Assembly: GCA_017506865.1 (NCBI GenBank)
Contig: JAFCMP010000175.1
Coordinates: 54,200 to 118,199 of the forward strand
Direction of reading: 5' to 3'
From: Tribonema minus
Lineage: Eukaryota; Sar; Xanthophyceae; Tribonematales; Tribonemataceae
DNA length: 64,000 bases
The notes below the pieces were generated by a model that worked only from the letters and a program-made list of their open reading frames with translations, was not told the DNA's origin and ran no database searches. A program made the position numbers and the translations under genes. How positions within the stretch are numbered: position 1 is the stretch's first letter; each line of letters opens with the position of its first letter. Positions 49,722-63,324 of the stretch are shown one piece after another.

Positions 49722-51788
49722 ATGTATGATGTATCCTGCATATTTAAACTTCGCTTCGTGGCTGTACACATGCATCTGGATGTGCTGTGGACGCCGCCTG
49801 GGCTATATACAAATGTAGGACACTTTGAACTGCTTGTCGCCCCTGCGGCAGCTCCGCCCTTGCCAACCACTGTGACAGCGTCGGCGACCACTCAAGCTGA
49901 CAGCACCCACATCACGGCTCCGAGTCGGACACAGCCCCGTACTGCGCTGCAGTTGCCACAGCAGCCTGAGCCACTGAGGTGTCCACTATGCACACTGGCA
50001 TTTTGGCAGCTTGGTCAGAAAGAGGACAGCAAACAGCGAGGCAAACTGTCAGCTGCGAGCCGCATGGCACCGGTAGTGGCCCACTTCAACGGTGGTAGCT
50101 GCACGAGGTCGATGCTGAACCCTGAGGCGAGCACATCACACTGTCAGCAAAATCCGGCGGCAGCATACGCCAAGGGCATCCGGCAGCAGGTTGATCACGA
50201 CCCATCCGGTGACCGTGCCCCTTCAGGCAGCAGTACCTGCAACACTGGGGCACACCATGCCAAGCGTGTGCAGGAGATGAGCACCATGTATGGTTGCACG
50301 GCAGAAGACTTCCTACGGGCGGTAAGGAAGCTGAGTGCATGCACAGGTGCCTGCGGTCTGGTCCATATGTCAGCCAGCGCGGGGCAGAGGCAATGCGCGC
50401 TGACCTCGCCATGCCACACGTGTCGACGGAATGGAAGCGCCCCCACGCGCGCACGCCCGGCAGTACCCCCGGGCCAGTCCGAGGGGCCCGGCGGGGGTGC
50501 GGGTAGCGACGGCGCGGCCGCGGCGGCGGGGGCTGCCGCAGCGACACCTCCAAAGCCACCGGCGGTGCCGGCTAGTGGCGCTGCCAACTCAAAGTCCAGC
50601 AAGAAACGCCCGGCGGCCACGGCAACCGGCGCGCAAAGGAGGCGCCGAACGGCAGCTGCTGCGGCACCGCCTGGCAGCGCCGGCAGCCGCACTCAGTCTA
50701 ACAGCCTAAGGCTGCAGGACAGCAGCCCCCCCCACGGGACGGCGGTGGGATGGGCGGACATGGACTTGGACCCGCCGGACGATGCCGCGTCACCGCCCGC
50801 CCCGACCACCACCACCAGTGGCAGGCCCTCAAAGCCCCAGGCACGAGCATCCCTGGCTTGGGACCTCTCGACGCCCTCGGTCGTCCACGCACTTGACCAG
50901 ACCAATGAGGCGGATCTACTGCTGCTACGGTTCACCACGACTGCCAACCCCTTCCGCACTCAGCTGCAGTGCACCCAGTGGGCACGGCTAGTGGAGCACG
51001 CCACACGACTACTGGCGGACGCCACAGACAGTGCACGTGAGGCGGCACGGGTGCGCCTCCACCATGGTGCCGGGGCGTTTGCTCTGAGTCATCAGGTTTC
51101 TCAGACTCTAGTGCAGCGCGGCTACAGGCTGCTGCACCTGCTAGCAGCAATGGCCTTTGGTAGGCAACCGGAGGGAACCGGTATGCCGCCTGCGGCCCGG
51201 CTGGCAGCGTTGCTGTCTGGCGACTTTGCGGAGCTACTGAGAAAGACGCTGTCAGCAGCAGCGGCGCTGCGGGCCCCCAAACCAAATAACGCAGCTACGG
51301 CGTCGGCGCAAACGAACTTCGATGCCGACTGGACGGAGGCTGACTCCAGGCAGCAAACAGCATGCGCTGCCCTCTCAGGCAAGCGACGGGGGGTAGGCCT
51401 GGCTGCCGCACGACTAGAGGCGCGTGAAGCATGCGCCCCAGCAGACGAGGTCACGGCACAGGTGCTGGCAGCAAAGCACCCTGAAACTGGCACCCGGCCC
51501 GGGGTAGTAGATACGCCAATGGAGCAAGTGCGCGGCCTGGTACGCGACGCCCGGCGGCACTGCTTGCACGGCGCAGGGGTGGCAACGACCGCCGGGCCCG
51601 CTGGCAGCGGCAGTCCCGTCTTCGAATCGGGTCACTGGCGCATGATCGCAGCGATAGGCCTGAGGATGCTGCCAGCGCAGCCGGACGGCGCCTCGAGGTG
51701 GAGGCGACAGACATACTGTCGACCTTGTCCGCAGCAGGGGCGGGGAAGGCAGGAGGGCTGGACGGCCTACGCTATGAACACCTCTTGA
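49722..51788 (+). CDS. Retrotransposon N-terminal region (zinc finger, Ala/Pro linker, RT lead-in)
   Basis: An open frame of 688 codons. Near the start is CPLCTLAFWQL ... VVAHFNGGSC, a possible C2H2/CCHC nucleic-acid-binding finger. A Pro/Ala/Thr-rich linker with basic clusters (SKKRPAAT, QRRRRTA) follows, then a helical domain (LDQTNEADLLLLRFTTTANPF; LAALLSGDFAELLRKTLSAA) and AKHPETGTRP, which resembles the lead-in to non-LTR reverse transcriptases. From about 51690 the RT sequence continues in another frame (51698-53408), so a one-base-type shift separates the halves. It is either a mutation that kills this copy or a sequence error. The true start codon is uncertain. Confidence 0.7.
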   Translation: MYDVSCIFKLRFVAVHMHLDVLWTPPGLYTNVGHFELLVAPAAAPPLPTTVTASATTQADSTHITAPSRTQPRTALQLPQQPEPLRCPLCTLAFWQLGQKEDSKQRGKLSAASRMAPVVAHFNGGSCTRSMLNPEASTSHCQQNPAAAYAKGIRQQVDHDPSGDRAPSGSSTCNTGAHHAKRVQEMSTMYGCTAEDFLRAVRKLSACTGACGLVHMSASAGQRQCALTSPCHTCRRNGSAPTRARPAVPPGQSEGPGGGAGSDGAAAAAGAAAATPPKPPAVPASGAANSKSSKKRPAATATGAQRRRRTAAAAAPPGSAGSRTQSNSLRLQDSSPPHGTAVGWADMDLDPPDDAASPPAPTTTTSGRPSKPQARASLAWDLSTPSVVHALDQTNEADLLLLRFTTTANPFRTQLQCTQWARLVEHATRLLADATDSAREAARVRLHHGAGAFALSHQVSQTLVQRGYRLLHLLAAMAFGRQPEGTGMPPAARLAALLSGDFAELLRKTLSAAAALRAPKPNNAATASAQTNFDADWTEADSRQQTACAALSGKRRGVGLAAARLEAREACAPADEVTAQVLAAKHPETGTRPGVVDTPMEQVRGLVRDARRHCLHGAGVATTAGPAGSGSPVFESGHWRMIAAIGLRMLPAQPDGASRWRRQTYCRPCPQQGRGRQEGWTAYAMNTS

Positions 51789-53408
51789 TGGCCGCTGGGC
51801 CTGGTGCACCAGTGAAAGCAGCCACCCGCCCCGTGGGCAGTGCCGCGCCAGGACTAGCTGGTGATTCAGAATCGGATGTGATGGAACCGGCATTCGCCCA
51901 TCACCTGGCCAAGGTGTTCACGACGCTGCTTGTTGAGCCCGAACTGCTGCCGGAGCAATCGCAACGGCTTCTCCGCGCCGCGGCCCTCTCAGGCATAGGA
52001 CAGAAGCGGCGTCCGATCGCCTGCTCCAGTGTCTGGCGCAGACTCCTCGGGTCCACAGCGGCACGGAGTGTCAAGGGCAAAATATCGGGGCTGCTGGCCT
52101 CCATGTCGCAGTTTGGCGTAGGATACCGGTCTGGCGTCGAGCATGTGGCAGCGCGCGCGCGCGTGTGGCACGAGCTGTATGGCACCACAATCCAGCTGGA
52201 CTGTGAGAACGCATTTAACAGTGTGGATCGCGCCGCCATTGTGCGGGGACTTATGCTCTTCTGTCCGGAGCTGCTCCCGCACTTTGAGTCCGTATACTGT
52301 GGTGACACTGCCCCAGAGATGCGAGTGGAGGTGAACGGTGAAGCTCGCATTATCTGCTCCCATCTAGGGTGCCAGCAAGGGGACCCTCTAGGGCCGCTGT
52401 ACTTTGCAGTGGCAGCGGCCTTCCTACTCTTCTACCCTGATGGAGTGAATGCGACGCCCGGCAGTATGCCGGCCTACGGCCACAGCACAGCGGAACCACC
52501 AGCCCCGCACTGCGCTTTCCTGGATGACCTCAACGTGCTGCAAGCTGCCTACTTCGACGATGCAGCGGCCGCTGGGGTGGCAGAGGTGATCCGTCGGCTT
52601 GCGGCAGGGGGCCTACGCGTTCGACCAGACAAGTCGCTGGCCATCGCCATGCGCGGCACAGTGTTTGATGAAGCGGCCAGAGCACGCCTGCGCGCCCTTG
52701 ACATACCGTTTGTGGACGCCACCATGCCAGAATCCAGTCAGGGCTTTACGTCGGTCGGGGTACCGGTAGGGCACCCAGCCTATGTGCATGCTGCCATGAG
52801 CAAGCATCTCGTTGACGCAGGGACATGGCGATTGTCGTGGCAGCTAGCTGGAATGGCGCGGCATCACCTACAGGCAGCACAGTTCATTCTGCGCAGGTCA
52901 CTGGCGAAGCGCATGGGCTTCTTAGCTCGGGTCGTTGACACGGCTTTGAGTGAGACATGGCTGCACGCATTTGACGGGTTCTGTGCAGGGACGCTTGAAC
53001 GCATGCTGCACCTGCACGGCTGCGCTACCGCGGCAGTCATGAAGTCACACCTGCTGGCCGCCTGCACTGCTGGTGACAATGAGGAAGCCAGCAGTGGCAG
53101 CGTGCTGGTATTGCCGCGCTTGGGCCCGCCAGAACTCACGGACATCGCAGTGCCACTGCGGGCGTCACGGTTGCCGGAGCGACGAGGCGGTCTGGGCATG
53201 CCGCTTTTGGGGCTACTGGCACCAGCCGCATACACGGCCCAGGCATGCACAACACTGCGGCCTGCAATAATTCATGCCACTGTGGCAGCAGGGGCCCTGA
53301 GGCTCGGCACTGACGAACACGGCGCAGTCACCTGGTTCGCGCAGCACTCATGCGCAATACGCGAGGACCAGGGACTGCCGCCAATCATCGAGGCCGTGCG
53401 ACGCTCTA
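51698..53408 (+). CDS. Retrotransposon reverse transcriptase, frameshifted and truncated by LTR insertion
   Basis: The frame carries the RT lead (DILSTLSAAGAGKAGGLDGL), palm motifs QLDCENAFNSVDR (A), LGCQQGDPLGP (B) and CAFLDDLNVL (C, FLDD), then the thumb. It is near-identical to the minus strand of 1-2395 up to codon 570. The last ten or so codons before a stop at 53440 come from the inserted LTR, not from the element. The endonuclease domain present in copy 1 is therefore missing here. The RT would synthesise cDNA at a nicked target. It has no ATG of its own, which agrees with a frameshift from the upstream frame. Confidence 0.85.
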
Positions 53409-54451
53409 TGTGTCGTAAAGCGGCCCCCTTATCTGGCTAGTTCAACCTAAAAAGAGGGTTTCCCCTTGGGTCGTACTTCAACTGTGTGCGGGAACGCTGT
53501 AGGGCTTAGTAATCAGACACGACTTTAACCTTCAACATGGCACAGCTTCTTCTGCTTCTACCTGTTTAGCCACGCTTGCATATCAGGGTGATATTGCACT
53601 TGGGGAGGGCGCTCCGGTCCACCTCCCACGGCACCAGGCAGTGGGCATTTCCGGCTGTTTCAAGTCAAGGTTGAGACTGGGTCTCACACACTTTCACCCT
53701 CTGTGGTTGGCACACCACCACAATGGCTGATCTCGGCAGGTGCTGACCTGTCACGTACAAGTTCGCGTAGTGCTCGGGGCACTGCACGCACGGGAGTGTT
53801 CGCTGTTTCCGTCGGCACCTCTGCTGCACGCAACTGAGGTGGCGGCTGGGGTTCGGGTTTCTGCACCATAAGCTGTGCTGTCTACTGGCGTTCTTTCGGG
53901 AGCGGCACTTACAGCACTCGTGAGTCCAGGACTTGGGGGCCAGTCACACACGGAGTGCCGGGCAGACAGCAGCTGTAAGCGGCGACAACGCCATCTCCGT
54001 TTTTCGGGCGGATATTTTGCTTGGGTAAGTTGCTGCCGCGCCTGCGCAGGGCACAGCAGTTGTTTACCTCTTTTGTTTGCGATACCTATCGCCTGTGTTG
54101 GTTCACGAGTCTCTGGCTCGGGTGAACGGCGTGTGCGTGCGTCAGACTGCACGCCGTGACCGTATCTTTTTATTGCGGGCGGAGCAAATTTTTCCGTATT
54201 TGCGTAAGTTTGACAGATACTGCTCTTCACGTTCGCGTAGCTTTGCGTTCTTGCTACATTACTCTCTACGGGCTCGTTCACTTCGTTTGGGTGTGCTACT
54301 TCTGCTGTTTCGTCTAGCGTCAAATTACATTGACGCTGGGGGGGAGAACTCGAACAGCAGTCGGCACTGAACAAGCAGGGTTCAGCAAGTAAGGAGTGAT
54401 ACTGAATACTTCTCAATTAATTTTTCAAATATTTTTAATGAAGTAGTCAAT
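53409..54451 (+). repeat. 5' LTR plus untranslated leader (inner border not fixed)
   Basis: This is non-coding sequence from the insertion point to the first gag ATG (54452). It starts with TG as LTRs do. Promoter and polyadenylation signals should lie here. I could not fix the LTR end or a tRNA primer site: candidate TGG-starting stretches (for example near 54334) fit poorly. The second LTR would settle it. Confidence 0.6.
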
Positions 54452-54847
54452 ATGTCAGACAGCGGAACTAGCTCTCAGACCAGCATGGCTCATGGAGTGC
54501 ATAGGGCACCTGAGAGTGTGGGCTCGTTCACCACATCTGTGAATTCAAGCCGTAAGGCAAAAATTGAGGCGCTGGTGGAAACAGTACCTCTGCAAGGCAG
54601 GACCATTCATAAGGAAGGTGACCCACTGACGGTAGCACTGACGCAGGTTGAGAAGCGCAATGTGGCAGCTCTTTGGCACCGCTACCCAGAGGGGTTCTTG
54701 CAGGCGCGCAGCGCACTTAAGCGTATGCGCGAGGAAGATGTCTGGCTGGTTAACCAGAGATCCGAAGTCCGGGCAGATGAGGAGCCCCACACCGGTGAGA
54801 TGTTTTGGTGTGGTTGGAGCGTGATGAAAAACGCATTGCCCGTGTAG
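54452..54847 (+). CDS. Gag N-terminus, separated from the main frame by a -1 shift
   Basis: ATG at 54452 (MSDSGTSSQTSMAHG) opens 131 codons ending at 54847. Near 54795 the reading that fits the downstream protein moves to the -1 frame (…GDVLVWLERDEKRI), overlapping this frame by about 40 bases. There is no classical slippery heptamer; a TTTT run at 54803-54806 is nearby. It may be programmed frameshifting, a lesion in this copy, or a base error. The sequence is polar and helical with no recognised motif. Confidence 0.6.
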   Translation: MSDSGTSSQTSMAHGVHRAPESVGSFTTSVNSSRKAKIEALVETVPLQGRTIHKEGDPLTVALTQVEKRNVAALWHRYPEGFLQARSALKRMREEDVWLVNQRSEVRADEEPHTGEMFWCGWSVMKNALPV

Positions 54848-57800
54848 GGGTGGTGGTCAAGCATGATGACAAAACGTTTGCGACGCGGCTGCAGCGTGAC
54901 TATGCGCGCGGAGATGATGAGCCCGCGCAATGGGAAGTTGAGTTGGTGGGGGGTATAGAGCCAAACTATGTGAGGTGGAGGCCGTCTGGGTATGAGTTGG
55001 CCATTCTACACCCAGTGAATCCGAAGGGTGCAGGTGTGAATAGGGAAGGACGACCGGACCAAGCCGTGATTGTGCAGGTTGCGCCGGCCTGGTGCCAGCC
55101 GTTGGGCCGTTTCCCTAGAGCTCATGCCATCACTGACCACATTGTTGTACGGACACTGGTGAACCCTACAGCGATGCAGGTCGCGGCGCACACTCTGACT
55201 CCTTGCATTCTCCCACAGGGTACCCCTATGAGGGCCAAAATAGGCAGGGCATGGCGCACATGTGTCATGGTGCAGGATTTTGTGGGCACTGACACTCATG
55301 TGCTTGACAGGAATGTGTTTGACCCCTTGTTGCTTGTGCGGGGCGATGACACGGGAGAAGACTTTTATTTGCCTGCGTCGTGCACCAGATTGCAAGTTGC
55401 TAGACCCTACTGGGTGCAGCCGTTGGCCCCTGCGGAGCCGCTGGCTGACGCTGCCAACTGGGCGCGCGTAGAGGGCCCATTGGCTGCTGACTGCCTTGAT
55501 CCTGACAAGGGCCCTGTACTGACAGTGCCTCCCTCGGTGCCAATCGCAGGCCTTGAGTTCACTATGCCAAGAGATGCCATAACTGACCGCTGTGTAGACC
55601 GCACTCTTGCTCAGCTCGTACACCAAATGAGGGGTAACCTCAATGACCCCATAGCTGTGAACGAGCTGCATACGTGGCGCGAGCAGGCTCACCAGTTGCA
55701 GCTGCAGCAACAGGGTTTGCCGCTGCAGCAGCACCAGCAGCAGCCGCAGCAGCAGCCGCAGCAGCAGCAACAGCAGCAGCCGCAGCAGCAGCAGCAGCAT
55801 CAGCAGCAGCCGCCGCCGCCGCAGCAGCAGCAGCAGGCTGAGCCTCAGGGTCAATGGCAGTTGTCAGAGCGGTGGCAACGACACCGGCAGCAGCAGACGG
55901 AGGACGCACAGCCGCCGCCGCAGCAGCAGCAGCAGCAGCAGCTGGCGCCATCGCCGCCGCCGCTGCAGCAGCTGCCAGTGGCGCCGTCGCCGCCGCAGCA
56001 GCAGCAGCAGCAACCGCCGCCGCCGCCTCCTCCGCCGCAGCAGCTGACGGAGGATGACGACCCGCAAGTGATCACCAGGCAAGAGGCAGCCCAGCAACGC
56101 ACGGCTGCCTTGCGCGCGATGGCTCCTCGGGCGCTCAAAGGTGTGTCACATGAAACGCTCTATTTTTTGGATGACCCCCCGGAGGCAGGTTTAGAGTACC
56201 GAGGGGTGGACAACAAGGCCATCAGCCATGAGGTCATTACGTGCATGATGCAGGAGTGGTTGGACTCGCTTGCAGCGCGTGTGTCGTTTGAAGGGGTGCA
56301 GTCGATCCCCGATCCCAACTCGGACCTGCGCACTTGTCCGTCATATGTTGCTTTGATGCTGCAATACTGCTTGTCCGCCGAGCTGCGTAGGAGCATTAAG
56401 GCGTTCCTGCACGAACATAGGGGCGCTAATGGCGACCTGTCAGGCAGGCAAATCAGTGCGTTGCATGCTCACCTCGACCGCGAGTATAGTGAGTCAATGC
56501 AGCGTAGCAAGGCAGACACAAGGTTGGAGCAGCTGCGCCTGGAGCCGGGAGTGAGCATCCAGGTATTTTTATTGGACTTTGAGAAAGTGCTGCGATACAC
56601 ATTGCACGGATTGGAGTTGGGAGAGAAGGTGTTCAGAGACAGGTTTGTCAGAAGGCTCATTGACACTCTGGCAAGATCCAAAGATGTGAAGGCCCGAGTT
56701 GAAAAGTTCTTGGAGGCACTGGTAGAGTTCAGGGTGGTGCTCGAGCGCCAAGGGACGGATCAAGTGGACATGGCGTCGGTAAGGCTGAAACTGCAGCAGG
56801 CAGAGAGTGTAGTGGCTGCGACGAAGAGCATGTCAGTGCGCGCATACTTGGCGGCAGAGGTGAGTAAGAAGTCTGAGAAGCGGGGGGGCTCGACATATGC
56901 ATTTAGTGGTGGCGGGTCAGAATCTGAGTCGGAAAACTCTGAGGGCGGCGCTTCTGGGGCTGACGTTCTTGCCACGCAGGGCGGCAGCGGCGCTGTGCCT
57001 AACACCCGGGCTACTGACACTAACGCTGAAACTCCGTGGAATGCAGCGCTGGACAGGTTCAGCTCCCATCTTCAACAGCATGCCAGTGACATGAACCAGC
57101 GTTTTGACTCACTTATCCGCGCAATGAGTCAACGTCACGGTGCTCCTCTGCAAACCGCTCCTCACAGGCAGCTATACTACCCTGCTGGCAACCGCCAGGG
57201 CCCGCCCAATTACGGCAGGCAGGGCTGGGGCGCCGCGCCCAACATCGGGGGCAACATCAACTCCAGGCCAAACGGGGGTTTGATCTCCAACACCGGGGGG
57301 GGGGCTCGTGTCGCTAACAACTTCCCCCTTGATCCCTCCAGTCTCTCCCCTGAGTTGGTGCAGGCTGTGCTGGCAATTGTACACGGCGAGAGGCCAGCAG
57401 TAGGCCCCACTGCGCCCACGTGGTCCACTGTGTTAGGCGTGGGGGCGGACAACGAGGCAGAGTACTTCTTCTCGGCGCGCACCTACTTCGCGTGGGATCC
57501 CTCGGCAGGCCCGGTGTGTCTGAGCTGCGACCCCGACAAGTTCGCTGAGTGCTGCTGCTTCGTGGCAGATGATGAGGTAGCAGAGGTGAGTAGTCTGGTC
57601 TGCGTGGCAGGTGCTGATGCTGGTGGCCAAATTGGCAGGATGGCCCCAGTGGTGCTCATGGTAGAGGCGCAGATTCACAATGTCATGCCTGCAGTGGTTT
57701 ATCTGGATTCGTGCGCAGGCTGCGATGTGATGCAGTTCAGGGCATACTGCCTTCTGTTGCGTAAGCTGAGAGACAGGGCAGAGACGGCGCAGCAGGCAGT

Positions 57801-60800
57801 GCGTTTGGAGCAATCCCAGCGCCAGCCCACATTTAAGGCGATTCGTGGGGTTGGCAGGCACCTGGTAGCAGTGATGTTTATGGTGACTGTGCAGGTGGAG
57901 ATTGCGGGCGTCTCAGCTCAAGTTGACTTTCATGTGAGCAACCAAATCGACCCTCAGTTCCTGCTCAGCTACAGCACCATTGCGCGTATGCGGTTGGACA
58001 TGCTCACGAGTCGCTCGCCTGCCATGGTACAGCATCCTGACTTCCCTAACAAAGCAGTCAAGTCGCTGACCCCTGATGAGGTAGCAGCCAAGCGTGACCA
58101 ATGGCGTAGCGCGCGCAATGCTGGCAACCAACAGGGAGTACAGTCGGCCGAAGTTGCAGTTGACCTAGGCTCGGTGTTGAAGTTTGAGTATGGGTCGCTG
58201 CCCGCGGAGCTGTTGGAGGAGCGTGCGGAGAATGGTGAGCCTGGCCCGAAGTTTGTGTTGAGCAAGGGCACGCAGCGAATGCAACCACCTATTGACCTTG
58301 ACAGTGTTGATGATGAGAGGGTAATCAGGGTGGATGATCTGCCGAAAGCGGGATGGGAGGTAGACGTGCAGCACAGACACTGGCACAACGGTGAGTTGAG
58401 TGAGGTAATGTCGGTCAGCTCAGAGTCGATTGACAGTGCCTCAGAGGACGGAGAGCCGGCTGACAGGTATGTGGAGGAGACAGACTGGACAAAGATGTCA
58501 GGTGAAGATTCAGCAGACGACAGTGACATGGAGCTCGATGCTGCGCGCACTCAGTCTTGTGATGAGACAGTTGAAGTTGAAGTTGACGTGGCGCTTGCTG
58601 AGCTTGATGCAGATAGGCGCTCAGGGTGCTACGACAAAAAGGGGGGGTCAACTTGGGCAGTGCAGGATTGCCACCCAGACAGGTGGGCAGCAATTTCACC
58701 AGTGGAGCGCGGTGAGTACCCAAACGTTGAGCACATGACCGTGTCAAGCCTCACAGTGGTAGACTTGGGGGCGGGCATTGGCAGCTCCGTGAAAGGTGCG
58801 ATTATGGGAGGGGCGCAGGTAGCATTGGCAGTGGAGATAGATGATACATATGCTGCCATCTTTCGCGCATCTCACCCCAACGTGCCCTTGCTGGTGGCAG
58901 ACTACACATCTAATAAGGTGTGGGACAGGATTATGGAGATAGACCCTGACCTAGTAACTGCCAGCACCCGTTGTGAAGGCGCCAGCAGACAGCGCTTCAA
59001 GCCAGCTGGGGAGATCAGAGTTGATGCAGAAGCAAATCAGGTAACCCCAAAGTTGGTGGACAAAGCCATTCAGCGAGGCGTGAAATGCCTGATGATTGAG
59101 AATGTGCCAGAGATCAGCGAGACAATCAGCGGGCAGTTGGCGATTGAGCATGCGCACCAGGCAGGATACCATGTGTTGTCATTTGAGCTCTCAGGTGCAG
59201 ACCTAGGGTTCCCTAACCTGCGCAATCGCGTGTTCTTTCTCATCACCAGGGGAGACCAAACTGTTGTAGACACCTTGCGTACAGTGGCAGGCAGGATTGA
59301 GGAGGCCAAGTATGGCGGTCACAAGCAGGAGAGAGTGCAGATTAACCCTGGTGAAATGTGGGGCGTGTCTAACCCTGTGTATGTGCTGCCGCCGCGCAAT
59401 GCCACAGCTCGCTGGACACATGACGCCAAGCGCAGTGCTCCCACTCTCATTTCACGCCACTTCCATGTGTTTCGCCAGCCTGCAGACGACCACATGCGTC
59501 GAGGTGACATTGAGTTCTCGCTCTCACAGCGGTATGTCCCCTCGCAGGCTGACGTGATGCGAGCCAACGGCTTGTGGTGGATCAAGGTGCCGCCGGGGGT
59601 CAGTCAGACTGCCCTGGCAAAAGGTTGTGGCCAGATCGTGCTGGCACCAGTCATGTCATTTATTGTGCGCATCTTGCGCACTGAGCCTGTGTTGTTTGAC
59701 ACGCAGCATCGCCTGCACCCAGCGGCGTCGCGTCTCATTGAGGATGGCATTTTTGTGCAGACACTTGGCCCGTATGCACTGCCTGAGGATCACCGTCAGG
59801 GCGGCACTCTCGTGGGGCCTGTACTCATTGCCTCCTCTCTGCCTAGCACGCCATTTTTGCGCAAGCTACGGCACATGCAGGGCTCGGTCAAGAGCGCTGG
59901 CAACAACAACCGCGAGCCAGGACCACAGCCGACCTCTACCTCAACTTCAACTTCAAGCACCAGCACCACGGCAAGAAGCACCGACGCGGACAGCGGTGAA
60001 GACGCAAGCAACGGCGACGGCGACGCCAGCGGTGAAGACGCTGAAGGCCATCGCAGCGGCGGGGCGCGCACGCCAGGTAAGATGACAATGTTGGAAGCAT
60101 ACAACCAAGTGATGGATGAGCTTGATGAGCGCTTGGGCAAGAATCACATGTCAGAAGACCCAGGCGTAGCCGCTACCGCCAATGCTAAATTGCCAGGGTG
60201 GGACGATATTCTGCTAGTTGCTGAGCAAGGCGCATCGGCGCACAAGCAAGCTACAGTACGCGTTGCCAAACAATACCCAGTAACTGAACCTACAACAGCA
60301 GGAGTTGCAGTGTTGGTGACGTGGACAGGGTGGGTGCCGCCGGGCAACTATGTGCTAGAAGGGGTAGTAGACCCAAAGGGGCACTGGGCAGTGCGGCGCC
60401 AGCGAGTGTTGGTGGAAGAAGGTAATCAAACCAGCACTATAAACATCACTATTGTGAAGCGTACCGGTAAGCTGAAACCGGGTGTTAAAGTGGGGCATCT
60501 ACACTTGTTGGATGAGCGGATGTGGAAGAAGGAGGTACACCAACATGAAGTAGGCATTACACGCAGTTTGCTGAAGCTGTCCGCGGAGTCGTTGAGACAG
60601 ACTGATACACCTGCGCGTGACAGTAAATTGGCAGCGGTCAAAGCCAGGATAGCGAGTGTTGAACGCAATGATCGTTTGGCCACAGCCTGCTTCATGGTAG
60701 CGATGGGGTGTGTCACGCCTGCGGAAGCACGTGCACAGTCTGAAGGGGCCATAAATGGAACAGCTGCGGAGAATTTGTTTGCGCAGAGTAGTGCGCATGG

Positions 60801-63324
60801 TTGGGGGCGCCAAGTTGAAGTTGAGGGGATGAGCACTGCTGATGACAGAACAATCCCTGTAGCAGGCACGGTACCGGGGGTACGACCGCCTGCAGAGCCC
60901 CCACCAGCGAAAACTTCTTGCACTGCAGTCTCAGAAACTCACGCTGGAACTAAACAGGAAGCAAAGATTGATGTAGAATCGCAACCTGGTGTTGACACTG
61001 GCGCAGGTACAGAACCTGTCAATGAGTGTACGGACGAAGAAGCAGTGCAGCGAGCGCGGGAGTTGGAGTGGTTTGCCGCGTTCAAAATAGGGGAATTGGA
61101 TCACCTTACAAACAAGCAGAAAGAAATTTTAACGGATTTGCTGCGTAGCATGGCTAGGAAAGGTATCTTCTCATTTGATGGCAGGCCCGGAAAGACGTCG
61201 TTGGTCCGTCACCATATTGATGTAGGGGATGCTAGACCAGTACGTGCAAGATTGCGCAAGTACAGCTTGAAGGAGCTTGAAGTGCTGTGGAAGGAGATAG
61301 ATTTTTTGATTAAGAAAGGTGTGATTGAACCGTCAAATTCGCCTTGGAACTCCCCTTTGATGATAATACCCAAGCCGGATGGGGGACTGCGAGTAGTGCA
61401 AGACTTGAGGGCGGTTAATCAAGCGGTCAAAGAAAAGGGCAGCGGCCAGGATGGTTTTCCGTTGCCACGCATTGATGAGGTGCATTCAGCGTTGAGTGGC
61501 TCTGAGTGGTTCAGCTCTATGGACGCGGTAGCTGGATTCTGGCATGTTGAACTTGATAGAGAATCCAGGCCGCTAACAGCATTTCAGACCAAATGGGGGT
61601 GCTACCAATGGAAGGTTGGACCCATGGGGCTCATGAATATGCCATCTACTTTTCAGCGTCTGATGCAGTTGGCCATGGGACATGATGCGTTGTGGGTGTA
61701 TGCATTAGTGTATGTGGACGATATTTTGGTTTTCAGCAAGACTTTCGAGGAACACATGAAGCATTTGAAGGTAGTGCTGAGCCGCTTGCTCTCAGTTGGT
61801 ATCAAGCTGAAGCCATCAAAGTGTCATTTCGCAATGAAAGAGGTCAAGTTTCTGGGCCACATAGTGGATGCGCGAGGTAAACGTGTGGACCCATCAAAAG
61901 TGGCAGCCATCGACAAAATACCACTTCCCACTGACCTCCATGATGTGCGTTCCTTTTTGTGTATGGCAGCATATTATAGGCAGTACATTTCCAATTTTTC
62001 TACAATCACGGAGCCCCTGGTAAACCTCACGCGCAAAGGTGTGCCGTTTGAGCTTTCTGATGATTGTGTAGCAACTTGGCAGGTTTTGAAGGAGGCGCTA
62101 AAAACGTCCCCTGTGCTAGCTCATCCAGACTTGAAAGGGATCCTTAATGGTACAGTCAAGCTGGTATTGCAAACAGATGCTTCAGACTATGGAGTTGGAG
62201 CAGTGCTGACGCAAATTTGTCCTGTCAATGGTGAGCATCCCATAGGATATTATAGTAGGACTTTAAAAACTGCCGAGCGCAACTACGGCACCTATGATAG
62301 GGAAGCGCTAGCGGCCGTGGAAGGGGTTCACTACTTCAGGCAGTTTTTGCATAATGGCAACACGTTCACTCTACAAACTGATCACTCTGCGCTAGCGCAT
62401 CTCATGGGTGGCTCAGAACCGCGAACTAAGCGGCAAGAACGTTACATATCAGAACTGCAAGAATACAACATGGATATAGTACATAGGCCTGGTAAAGAGA
62501 ATGGTAATGCAGATGCTCTCTCTCGTATCAGGGACGGTGCTTATGTCATGATGTCTGCAGGTGTTGACCTCTCTGTGAATGCAGCGCAGACCTCGCTGCA
62601 TGGGGGCGTGCAGAGGCCCACACCTGACACCAAAGAAAGAATTGCAGTGCCTGTTCTTGCTTTTAGCGACGTTGAGAAGACAGGTGGAGTGCAGTGCTCG
62701 AGAGTGCAGGTCAGCATGACAGCGGTGGCGCAATTGTGGCCAGAGGGCGAAGATGATCACCTAGGAGAACCAACGCTGGACGATGGAGACGAGTTTGACA
62801 GTGACGAAGAAACAGGTGGTTCATTAAAGTTTAAGAAGCGGCAGCGTCCAGTTTTTCAGTCGAGTGACTTAGCGGATTCTTTGGGCAGCGATCCAGTGCT
62901 TGGCAAGGTTGTGAAATACCTCCAAGCAAAAGCCAGTAGTAGGGCTCATGGTCTAACCCCAGTTGAAGTTGAAGAGGCGCGTGCTTTTGAACGTGCAGGT
63001 TATTATATGCGCGAAGCTAAGATGTATATTGCTGCAGGGGGAAGGTCACACAGGGCAGGGACAGACTTGTTGGTTATACCAAAGGCTCTGCGCGAGCGCG
63101 TGTTGCTTGAGTGTCATGACGGTGCAATCGGGGGAGGCCACAGTGGTTTTGCTCGCGCCTATGACAAGGTTAGGCGCAGGTACTTTGGCCAGGCATGTAT
63201 GCGGATGTTTTTCATTGGGTGCTTTCTTGCATGGCGTGTCAGAAGCGCAAGTCAAGGCGTGATGCACGAATTAGGGTACATGGCTTTGGAGATATTGATT
63301 TGCAACATGCATTCCAGTTGGTAG
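54805..63324 (+). CDS. Gag-protease-DNA methyltransferase-RT-RNase H polyprotein
   Basis: A single frame of about 2,839 codons without ATG at its head. Gag: poly-Gln tracts (55690-55840, 55915-56045) and a capsid-like helical region (56240-56860). Protease: VVYLDSCAGCDVM (about 57697-57735) with D-S-C-A in place of the usual D-S/T-G-A. C5 cytosine methyltransferase, 58650-59690: motif I VVDLGAGIGSS (58756-58788), motif II VEIDDTYAAIFRASHP, motif IV STRCEGAS with the catalytic Cys at 58972, motif VI IENVP (59095), motif VIII FPNLRNRVFFL and motif X GCGQIVLAPV. RT, about 61180-61860: KPDGGLRVVQDLRAVNQ, FSSMDAVAGFWH, YVDD at 61711. RNase H, 62155-62525: QTDASDYGVGAVLT, NADALSR. Integrase zinc region begins at about 63100 (ECHDGAIGGGHSG) and the frame breaks near 63190. 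A linker (59700-61020) of unknown function separates methyltransferase and RT. Confidence 0.92.
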   Translation: MVWLERDEKRIARVGVVVKHDDKTFATRLQRDYARGDDEPAQWEVELVGGIEPNYVRWRPSGYELAILHPVNPKGAGVNREGRPDQAVIVQVAPAWCQPLGRFPRAHAITDHIVVRTLVNPTAMQVAAHTLTPCILPQGTPMRAKIGRAWRTCVMVQDFVGTDTHVLDRNVFDPLLLVRGDDTGEDFYLPASCTRLQVARPYWVQPLAPAEPLADAANWARVEGPLAADCLDPDKGPVLTVPPSVPIAGLEFTMPRDAITDRCVDRTLAQLVHQMRGNLNDPIAVNELHTWREQAHQLQLQQQGLPLQQHQQQPQQQPQQQQQQQPQQQQQHQQQPPPPQQQQQAEPQGQWQLSERWQRHRQQQTEDAQPPPQQQQQQQLAPSPPPLQQLPVAPSPPQQQQQQPPPPPPPPQQLTEDDDPQVITRQEAAQQRTAALRAMAPRALKGVSHETLYFLDDPPEAGLEYRGVDNKAISHEVITCMMQEWLDSLAARVSFEGVQSIPDPNSDLRTCPSYVALMLQYCLSAELRRSIKAFLHEHRGANGDLSGRQISALHAHLDREYSESMQRSKADTRLEQLRLEPGVSIQVFLLDFEKVLRYTLHGLELGEKVFRDRFVRRLIDTLARSKDVKARVEKFLEALVEFRVVLERQGTDQVDMASVRLKLQQAESVVAATKSMSVRAYLAAEVSKKSEKRGGSTYAFSGGGSESESENSEGGASGADVLATQGGSGAVPNTRATDTNAETPWNAALDRFSSHLQQHASDMNQRFDSLIRAMSQRHGAPLQTAPHRQLYYPAGNRQGPPNYGRQGWGAAPNIGGNINSRPNGGLISNTGGGARVANNFPLDPSSLSPELVQAVLAIVHGERPAVGPTAPTWSTVLGVGADNEAEYFFSARTYFAWDPSAGPVCLSCDPDKFAECCCFVADDEVAEVSSLVCVAGADAGGQIGRMAPVVLMVEAQIHNVMPAVVYLDSCAGCDVMQFRAYCLLLRKLRDRAETAQQAVRLEQSQRQPTFKAIRGVGRHLVAVMFMVTVQVEIAGVSAQVDFHVSNQIDPQFLLSYSTIARMRLDMLTSRSPAMVQHPDFPNKAVKSLTPDEVAAKRDQWRSARNAGNQQGVQSAEVAVDLGSVLKFEYGSLPAELLEERAENGEPGPKFVLSKGTQRMQPPIDLDSVDDERVIRVDDLPKAGWEVDVQHRHWHNGELSEVMSVSSESIDSASEDGEPADRYVEETDWTKMSGEDSADDSDMELDAARTQSCDETVEVEVDVALAELDADRRSGCYDKKGGSTWAVQDCHPDRWAAISPVERGEYPNVEHMTVSSLTVVDLGAGIGSSVKGAIMGGAQVALAVEIDDTYAAIFRASHPNVPLLVADYTSNKVWDRIMEIDPDLVTASTRCEGASRQRFKPAGEIRVDAEANQVTPKLVDKAIQRGVKCLMIENVPEISETISGQLAIEHAHQAGYHVLSFELSGADLGFPNLRNRVFFLITRGDQTVVDTLRTVAGRIEEAKYGGHKQERVQINPGEMWGVSNPVYVLPPRNATARWTHDAKRSAPTLISRHFHVFRQPADDHMRRGDIEFSLSQRYVPSQADVMRANGLWWIKVPPGVSQTALAKGCGQIVLAPVMSFIVRILRTEPVLFDTQHRLHPAASRLIEDGIFVQTLGPYALPEDHRQGGTLVGPVLIASSLPSTPFLRKLRHMQGSVKSAGNNNREPGPQPTSTSTSTSSTSTTARSTDADSGEDASNGDGDASGEDAEGHRSGGARTPGKMTMLEAYNQVMDELDERLGKNHMSEDPGVAATANAKLPGWDDILLVAEQGASAHKQATVRVAKQYPVTEPTTAGVAVLVTWTGWVPPGNYVLEGVVDPKGHWAVRRQRVLVEEGNQTSTINITIVKRTGKLKPGVKVGHLHLLDERMWKKEVHQHEVGITRSLLKLSAESLRQTDTPARDSKLAAVKARIASVERNDRLATACFMVAMGCVTPAEARAQSEGAINGTAAENLFAQSSAHGWGRQVEVEGMSTADDRTIPVAGTVPGVRPPAEPPPAKTSCTAVSETHAGTKQEAKIDVESQPGVDTGAGTEPVNECTDEEAVQRARELEWFAAFKIGELDHLTNKQKEILTDLLRSMARKGIFSFDGRPGKTSLVRHHIDVGDARPVRARLRKYSLKELEVLWKEIDFLIKKGVIEPSNSPWNSPLMIIPKPDGGLRVVQDLRAVNQAVKEKGSGQDGFPLPRIDEVHSALSGSEWFSSMDAVAGFWHVELDRESRPLTAFQTKWGCYQWKVGPMGLMNMPSTFQRLMQLAMGHDALWVYALVYVDDILVFSKTFEEHMKHLKVVLSRLLSVGIKLKPSKCHFAMKEVKFLGHIVDARGKRVDPSKVAAIDKIPLPTDLHDVRSFLCMAAYYRQYISNFSTITEPLVNLTRKGVPFELSDDCVATWQVLKEALKTSPVLAHPDLKGILNGTVKLVLQTDASDYGVGAVLTQICPVNGEHPIGYYSRTLKTAERNYGTYDREALAAVEGVHYFRQFLHNGNTFTLQTDHSALAHLMGGSEPRTKRQERYISELQEYNMDIVHRPGKENGNADALSRIRDGAYVMMSAGVDLSVNAAQTSLHGGVQRPTPDTKERIAVPVLAFSDVEKTGGVQCSRVQVSMTAVAQLWPEGEDDHLGEPTLDDGDEFDSDEETGGSLKFKKRQRPVFQSSDLADSLGSDPVLGKVVKYLQAKASSRAHGLTPVEVEEARAFERAGYYMREAKMYIAAGGRSHRAGTDLLVIPKALRERVLLECHDGAIGGGHSGFARAYDKVRRRYFGQACMRMFFIGCFLAWRVRSASQGVMHELGYMALEILICNMHSSW

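Follow-up and report, generated by a model that had tools for sequence, protein, structure and literature searches.

Organisation of the element

The stretch analysed here (the window, 64,000 nucleotides of Tribonema minus DNA) constitutes the final 64 kb of contig C175 in a 158-Mb genome, and contains an LTR retrotransposon of the Ty3/gypsy type whose features are collected in Table 1. Searching for telomere repeats gave a single, internal hit. As the end of the window is also the end of the contig, the 3' LTR is visible in other copies alone. In C445, whose interior is incomplete, the two LTRs are identical at 311 of 312 positions and there is a target duplication of CATG. The repeats are plain direct LTRs in the sister element C511, and a DIRS-like arrangement, hinted at by inverted pieces in C190, was rejected, C190 being taken as a rearranged copy. 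The first 15 bases of the primer-binding-site-like stretch also come after the 5' LTR of C511; a tRNA partner was sought for the stretch and none was identified. The polyprotein frame ends in the window at 63324, inside the integrase, and extends further in copies C533 and C15; in C533, a 3105-aa frame starts with the peptide of the upstream open frame. The element itself starts within the end of another reverse transcriptase (RT) frame, at 51485-53440 on the forward strand (RVT_1 32.2 bits, above the cut-off), and a further RT frame lies at 2-2398 on the reverse strand (28.6 bits, just below the cut-off); our guess would be that both are LINE-like.

Table 1. Features of the methyltransferase-bearing element, in window coordinates.
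Feature	Position	Strand	Basis or remark
5' LTR (TGTCG...CACCACA, 312 bp)	53411..53722	+	so called because the identical repeat terminates copies C15, C190 and C445
Primer-binding-site-like stretch	53723..53742	+	immediately 3' of the LTR
Upstream open frame, 158 aa	54371..54844	+	fused with the polyprotein in copy C533
Polyprotein frame, 2841 codons, stop-free	54799..63321	+	open-reading-frame reading
Gag-like region (weak)	56119..57078	+	Retrotrans_gag E 0.18, under the cut-off
D-S-C-A motif, retropepsin-like (weak)	57707..57718	+	sequence reading alone
C5 cytosine-methyltransferase domain	58735..59700	+	Pfam, PDB sequence matches, AlphaFold and Foldseek
Motif IV loop (R-C-E...)	58969..59043	+	the 75 nt absent from the sister family
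Cys codon at the catalytic position, residue 1392	58972..58974	+	aligned to the cysteine of Pro-Cys in DNMT2 and other families
Reverse transcriptase	61366..61866	+	RVT_1 E 2.1e-33
RNase H	62056..62466	+	RT_RNaseH E 2.5e-28; RT_RNaseH_2 E 4.9e-26
Integrase zinc finger	63076..63186	+	Integrase_H2C2 E 7.2e-6

RT, RNase H and the H2C2 finger of the integrase follow one another in the window in the order of a gypsy-type pol, and the methyltransferase domain and RT share one frame. The Pfam matches thus bear out the central claim of the preliminary description, i.e. that a C5 methyltransferase lies inside the pol of a Ty3/gypsy LTR element, in the same uninterrupted frame as RT. The DNA_methylase, RVT_1 and RT_RNaseH profiles expected there are all significant, and the domain does lie upstream of RT; its placement downstream of a protease is less secure, as the protease is represented by the D-S-C-A motif only and a Pfam search of the element gave no protease match up to E 5.

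The DNA_methylase match covers residues 1319-1492 and scores 37.4 bits, the cut-off being 22 (E 2.6e-9). An AlphaFold model of the window-family domain (pLDDT 67.1, pTM 0.71) has C5 methyltransferases as its top Foldseek matches, with the loop at residues 124-144 below 50 pLDDT. Motif I (from 58759), the ENV of motif VI (59098-59106) and an R-N-R at motif VIII (59221-59229) are all present, motif I having a glycine after D-L, where an aromatic residue or cysteine is usual. The domain matches DNMT2 in a PDB sequence search, and its motif IV cysteine is aligned with the DNMT2 cysteine; motif IV nevertheless reads S-T-R-C-E, not Pro-Cys, and motif X is weak by sequence reading. Hence motifs I, VI and VIII and a cysteine at the motif IV position stand as first described, whereas the claim of a catalytic cysteine in canonical order was overstated, since the other sequences compared have P-C where this family has S-T-R-C-E.

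In a profile search against the PDB, DNMT2 and HhaI were the best matches and further chains included DNMT1; no DNMT3-named chain occurred in either 46 matches (E up to 1) or 56 (E up to 0.01). By sequence profiles alone, and with a tree built without DNMT3, the domain is not detectably DNMT3-like, and the captured enzyme appears closest to the DNMT2, HhaI and DNMT1 chains. Among long proteins, a homologue search gave no match at E 0.001 from 2334 candidates; none of 59 pattern matches in viral contigs was confirmed, and none of 67 phage records covered 80% of the query (five matches are listed, at 25-34% identity).

Copies and related families

A protein search of the genome with the domain (384 candidates, 112 scored, so that all counts are lower bounds) gave at least 141 matches, of which at least 18 are full length at 98% identity or more, 17 of these 18 being stop-free. 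At the DNA level, at least 20 copies, on 19 contigs, span window positions 57640-61900 entirely at 99-100% identity, and one more is nearly whole at 96%; the 4261-nt stretch from upstream of the D-S-C-A motif into RT is accordingly intact in at least 20 copies. At least 21 RT matches are full length and of the window type (98-100%), and pairing by hand among the matches listed places the domain upstream of RT in 18 of them (in pieces in C479). The remaining three are C74, which has only the last 53 residues of the domain, and C158 and C227, in which the DNA match starts at window position 60026 and no domain is found among the matches listed. The latter two loci (C158:134852-136726 and C227:22864-24738) are window-type copies at 97% that share their start point, and may represent either a chimeric or deleted subfamily or a single duplicated locus. 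Among the copies examined, none was found that is free of the domain and has duplications flanking its place. C335, C479 and C551 are broken at, or start at, window position 59942, a simple-sequence stretch just 3' of the domain that is perhaps a hot spot for nested insertion.

Two related sequences come from other collections. In EukProt, a peptide derived from a Trinity assembly matches at 94% identity across 381 residues that take in the end of the domain and the part downstream, which indicates that some copy or relative is probably transcribed. A metagenome protein, P0001, is 74% identical across 48% of the query with the same motif IV as the window element.

Three further families in the genome are related to the window family in both RT and domain. 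The first (the 60% family) has a domain 59-60% identical over most or all of its length at no fewer than six places, with RT at 89-92%. The second, a sister family in which the catalytic loop is deleted (the deleted family), has RT at 92% and a domain that is 66-67% identical over residues 147-366 at most places and 62% end to end. Both have the same architecture as the window element, and RT, RNase H, H2C2 and rve were each found in C550 (60% family) and C214 (deleted family). The third, the distant family (C176, C216, C312 and two places on C212), has RT at 58-60% and a domain at 24-28%, the latter lying approximately 2.4-2.7 kb upstream of RT (2.5 kb in the window); those members whose sequence was read have a canonical G-P-P-C motif IV.

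Beyond these window-related families, a genome scan with PF00145 (378 candidates, 123 scored) identified at least 123 places. At least 24 of them, paired by hand among the RT matches listed, have an RVT_1 match downstream on the same strand and in a frame of equal length; the spacing is 2742 or 2787 bp in 22 of the 24. The 2742-bp group (C4), the group whose domain was read, has A-P-C at motif IV; a C89 family has a sub-threshold aspartic-protease match 3' of its domain, and the tree families B, F and H have long frames in which no RT was seen. C101, C84, C145, C340 and C378 (L038-L042), and others, likewise contain canonical C5-methyltransferase domains in long frames (1385-2936 aa at these five), such that the genome looks rich in domains of this kind. 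Three short HhaI-like methyltransferase frames of 367-390 aa were also observed (L031, C223:937874; L032, C223:702740; L033, C181:39962), of which L031 and L032 lie apart from the long-frame families in the tree. A separate RT match (C311:6724-7197) falls within a 6208-aa open frame, by far the longest among the matches listed. To judge from their motifs, the families with canonical Pro-Cys are probably real methyltransferases.

Active-site variation and loss of the catalytic loop

In a midpoint-rooted tree of 23 domains, the window family, the 60% family, the deleted family and P0001 cluster at 100/100, and the distant family joins this window clade at 95/91. The long-frame families and P0004 also cluster at 95/91 (15 rows), away from DNMT2, two short-frame enzymes and five database proteins. 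Given the midpoint root, the absence of DNMT1, DNMT3 and DNMT5 sequences and a warning from the tree program that long branches meet, including where the distant canonical family joins the window clade, a single common capture is only suggested by this topology. Motif IV divides along the same lines: Pro-Cys is present in all 19 rows outside the window clade and in none of the four inside it, where S-T-R-C-E occurs in three (window family, 60% family and P0001) and the motif is absent from the deleted family. Conservation of this cysteine in all three suggests that it still matters there. Motif I, EN(V) and RxR are kept in the window family, and the deleted family retains EN, RxR and the glycines of motif I.

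The loop surrounding the cysteine is poorly conserved between the window and 60% families (9 of 26 residues identical, against 224 of 396 overall), only 19 of 370 windows of that comparison being as low. It is among the best conserved parts of the domain in two of three canonical pairs (351 of 371 windows being no better in one and 362 of 383 in the other) and average in the third (197 of 359); between the window family and P0001, 19 of 26 loop residues are identical.

In the deleted family, 25 codons, including the catalytic cysteine loop, have been removed in frame. A search for the deletion junction gave 29 places, 28 of them exact and one with three mismatches, and none in a backward control; no undeleted copy, with 66-96 nt between the same exact flanks, was located, a search that diverged undeleted copies would escape. 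C511, a member of this family, measures 13,406 bp; its two LTRs agree at all of their 398 positions, and it has a target duplication of CAAA and a single 3455-aa frame. Frames of 3452-3455 aa occur in this family at a minimum of four places (C33, C214, C292 and C511). Identical LTRs together with the target duplication show that C511 moved recently without a catalytic cysteine of its own. The domain of C214, scanned in two pieces, scores 15.1 bits with DNA_methylase, under the cut-off, so that a PF00145 scan at the cut-off would, judging by this one copy, overlook the deleted family.

A model of the deleted domain (pLDDT 70.3, pTM 0.72) is poor in its C-terminal part, with a core (residues 51 to 210) in which 10 of 16 ten-residue blocks have pLDDT of at least 90 and 14 of 16 at least 84. 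Foldseek matches this model best to C5 methyltransferases, with modest query TM-scores of 0.34-0.54. The fold thus appears, in these predictions, to have been retained after loss of the catalytic site, and the family would no longer be catalytic given that the cysteine loop is missing.

Possible roles of the domain and comparison with known systems

We propose that an ancestral Ty3/gypsy element took a C5 cytosine methyltransferase into pol, which would have been inherited vertically since, that the active site shifted from Pro-Cys to Arg-Cys-Glu in the window clade, and that the catalytic loop was then deleted in the sister family without halting amplification of the elements or releasing the constraint on the core of the fold. 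On this proposal, to which we give an even chance of being correct, the domain would now work in the window clade mainly without catalysis in cis. The non-catalytic role may be to bind SAM or nucleic acid within the Gag-Pol particle or, alternatively, to be the dead partner of an active methyltransferase, as DRM3 or DNMT3L are for their paralogues. Continued transposition of the loop-less sister family argues against self-methylation in cis being required, and so weighs against the role suggested in the preliminary description, i.e. that the element marks its own DNA.

A possible, if less likely, explanation is that the window domain is an active enzyme with an Arg-Cys-Glu site that methylates the cDNA or DNA of the element, the deleted family borrowing activity from related elements or from the host. 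The retention of S-T-R-C-E in three sequences and of ENV and RxR in the window family, and the presence of canonical relatives within the same genome, are consistent with this, as is the activity in yeast of SymbioDIRS-Dnmt3 enzymes (available text of PMC5890265). Sequence variation among the copies also bears on the question. Across 12 window-family copies, 14 of 19 C-to-T/G-to-A variants lie in CpG, compared with 467 of 2314 C/G positions (Fisher p 6.7e-7), suggesting that some enzyme, probably, methylates the CpG sites of these copies. However, when unpolarised pairs are compared, transitions in CpG (4/13 in the deleted family, 20/61 in the 60% family, and 9/18, 12/29, 6/16 and 3/7 in the window family) do not clearly differ between the window and deleted families. 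Depletion of CpG was considered as a mark of self-methylation and is not decisive, as the ratio is lowest in the deleted family (0.67, against 0.72 in the window family and 0.80 in the 60% family; positions 1-49000 of the window give 0.91). Further points against an active enzyme are the loss of proline ahead of the cysteine, a loop that shows lower conservation than the remaining domain when set against the 60% family and has low confidence in the window model, and the inactivity in yeast of KnitGypsy and SymbioLINE enzymes, described as inconclusive by the authors of that work (PMC5890265, in the portion available).

That the domain is instead a functionless, decaying passenger in the window clade, kept in frame only for read-through of pol, seems improbable, and was weighed using dN/dS calculated by the NG86 method. 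Between families, the domain has a dN/dS of 0.15-0.21 and gag one of 0.17-0.34, with RT at 0.05-0.06 and the linkers at 0.19-0.37 (both where defined), values that are only rough because dS is high (approximately 1.1-2.8; 1.6 between the window and 60% families) or saturated. Tolerance of the loss of the catalytic loop favours a passenger, as do the overlap with the linker range and a domain dN some 3 to 3.6 times that of RT. By hand, the branches leading to the deleted, window and 60% families have dN of 0.072, 0.155 and 0.183, respectively, for the domain and 0.034, 0.043 and 0.052 for RT, the short domain branch of the deleted family speaking for the proposal of a role without catalysis in cis; exchange of the domain between families was rejected as the source of its higher divergence, dS being alike across domains, though high or saturated. 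Also on the side of a passenger, 12 young window-family copies differ by 52 variants within 4.1 kb, and the nine non-synonymous and four synonymous changes that fall in the domain (0.70 per site) give no sign of strong current constraint; a thirteenth row, L008, was excluded because most of its differences stem from a non-homologous end. Against a passenger, the between-family ratio for the domain is at a gag-like level and lower than five of the seven defined linker values, and the motif I glycines, EN and RxR persist in the deleted family. At the codon level, what remains of the domain is constrained between families, and the deletion may be recent on its branch and postdate that constraint.

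A one-off insertion or assembly artefact, for which only the two RT copies lacking a listed domain (C158 and C227) might speak, is ruled out for practical purposes by the full-span copies on 19 contigs, the related families with the domain, and the matches to P0001 and to the transcript-derived peptide.

More specifically, and somewhat more tentatively than the proposal of capture followed by loss of catalysis, the window clade may have made a captured methyltransferase into a pseudo-enzyme kept for a structural, SAM-binding or nucleic-acid-binding job. The deleted family would then represent a natural loss-of-function experiment, indicating that methylation in cis is not the reason for keeping the domain. 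DNMT3L is a catalytically dead DNMT paralogue, and DRM3 is another (available text of PMC2965745). Both resemble the deleted family in that a methyltransferase has been retained after loss of its catalytic site, but they are DNMT3-class host genes, whereas here the domain is part of a retrotransposon polyprotein.

The wider question is why retrotransposons capture methyltransferases, which usually act against them. Published suggestions are that a retroelement methyltransferase self-methylates retrotranscribed DNA (PMC5890265) or serves antiviral defence of the host (PMC6338049), as far as the available parts of both papers extend. Canonical, altered and loop-deleted versions within one genome, the latter two in close sisters, make this question testable by a comparison of methylation and activity across families, and the altered active site and a deleted, recently moving sister family raise the interest of the element described first. 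In the literature searched, subscription-only papers aside and some sources being available in part, no retroelement methyltransferase with a deleted catalytic loop was found. An Ectocarpus DNA transposon with a ParB-like/N4-N6 methyltransferase gene is a different thing (PMC12477816, available text).

The bare finding of a gypsy element with a methyltransferase is one more of a known kind, as the preliminary description had anticipated: KnitGypsy-Dnmt3 of Klebsormidium nitens, already published, is likewise an LTR gypsy element with a cytosine methyltransferase, DNMT3-related, in its Pol frame, for which purifying selection and conserved key residues are reported (PMC5890265, available text). 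Other work describes DNMT3 carried by LTR and DIRS elements, dinoflagellate LINEs with orphan DNMTs, and a ChloroDNMT lineage (PMC12344493, available text). SymbioDIRS-Dnmt3 and SymbioLINE-Dnmt of Symbiodinium are, in the accessible description, also retroelements carrying C5 methyltransferases, the SymbioDIRS-Dnmt3 enzymes methylating CG de novo in yeast (PMC5890265); unlike the window gypsy element, they belong to the DIRS and LINE classes and have conserved key residues. KnitGypsy-Dnmt3 differs from the window families in having DIRS-like repeats, where these have direct LTRs and a 4-bp target duplication, and from the window clade in its DNMT3 relationship and conserved residues, where the clade has no DNMT3 match and an altered or deleted site. 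Since the published gypsy and DIRS cases are DNMT3 and none matched here, the acquisition was probably a separate one. What is new in comparison with these systems is a domain not detectably DNMT3-like, at least 24 other places with domain and RT, an Arg-Cys motif IV and a loop-deleted sister family.
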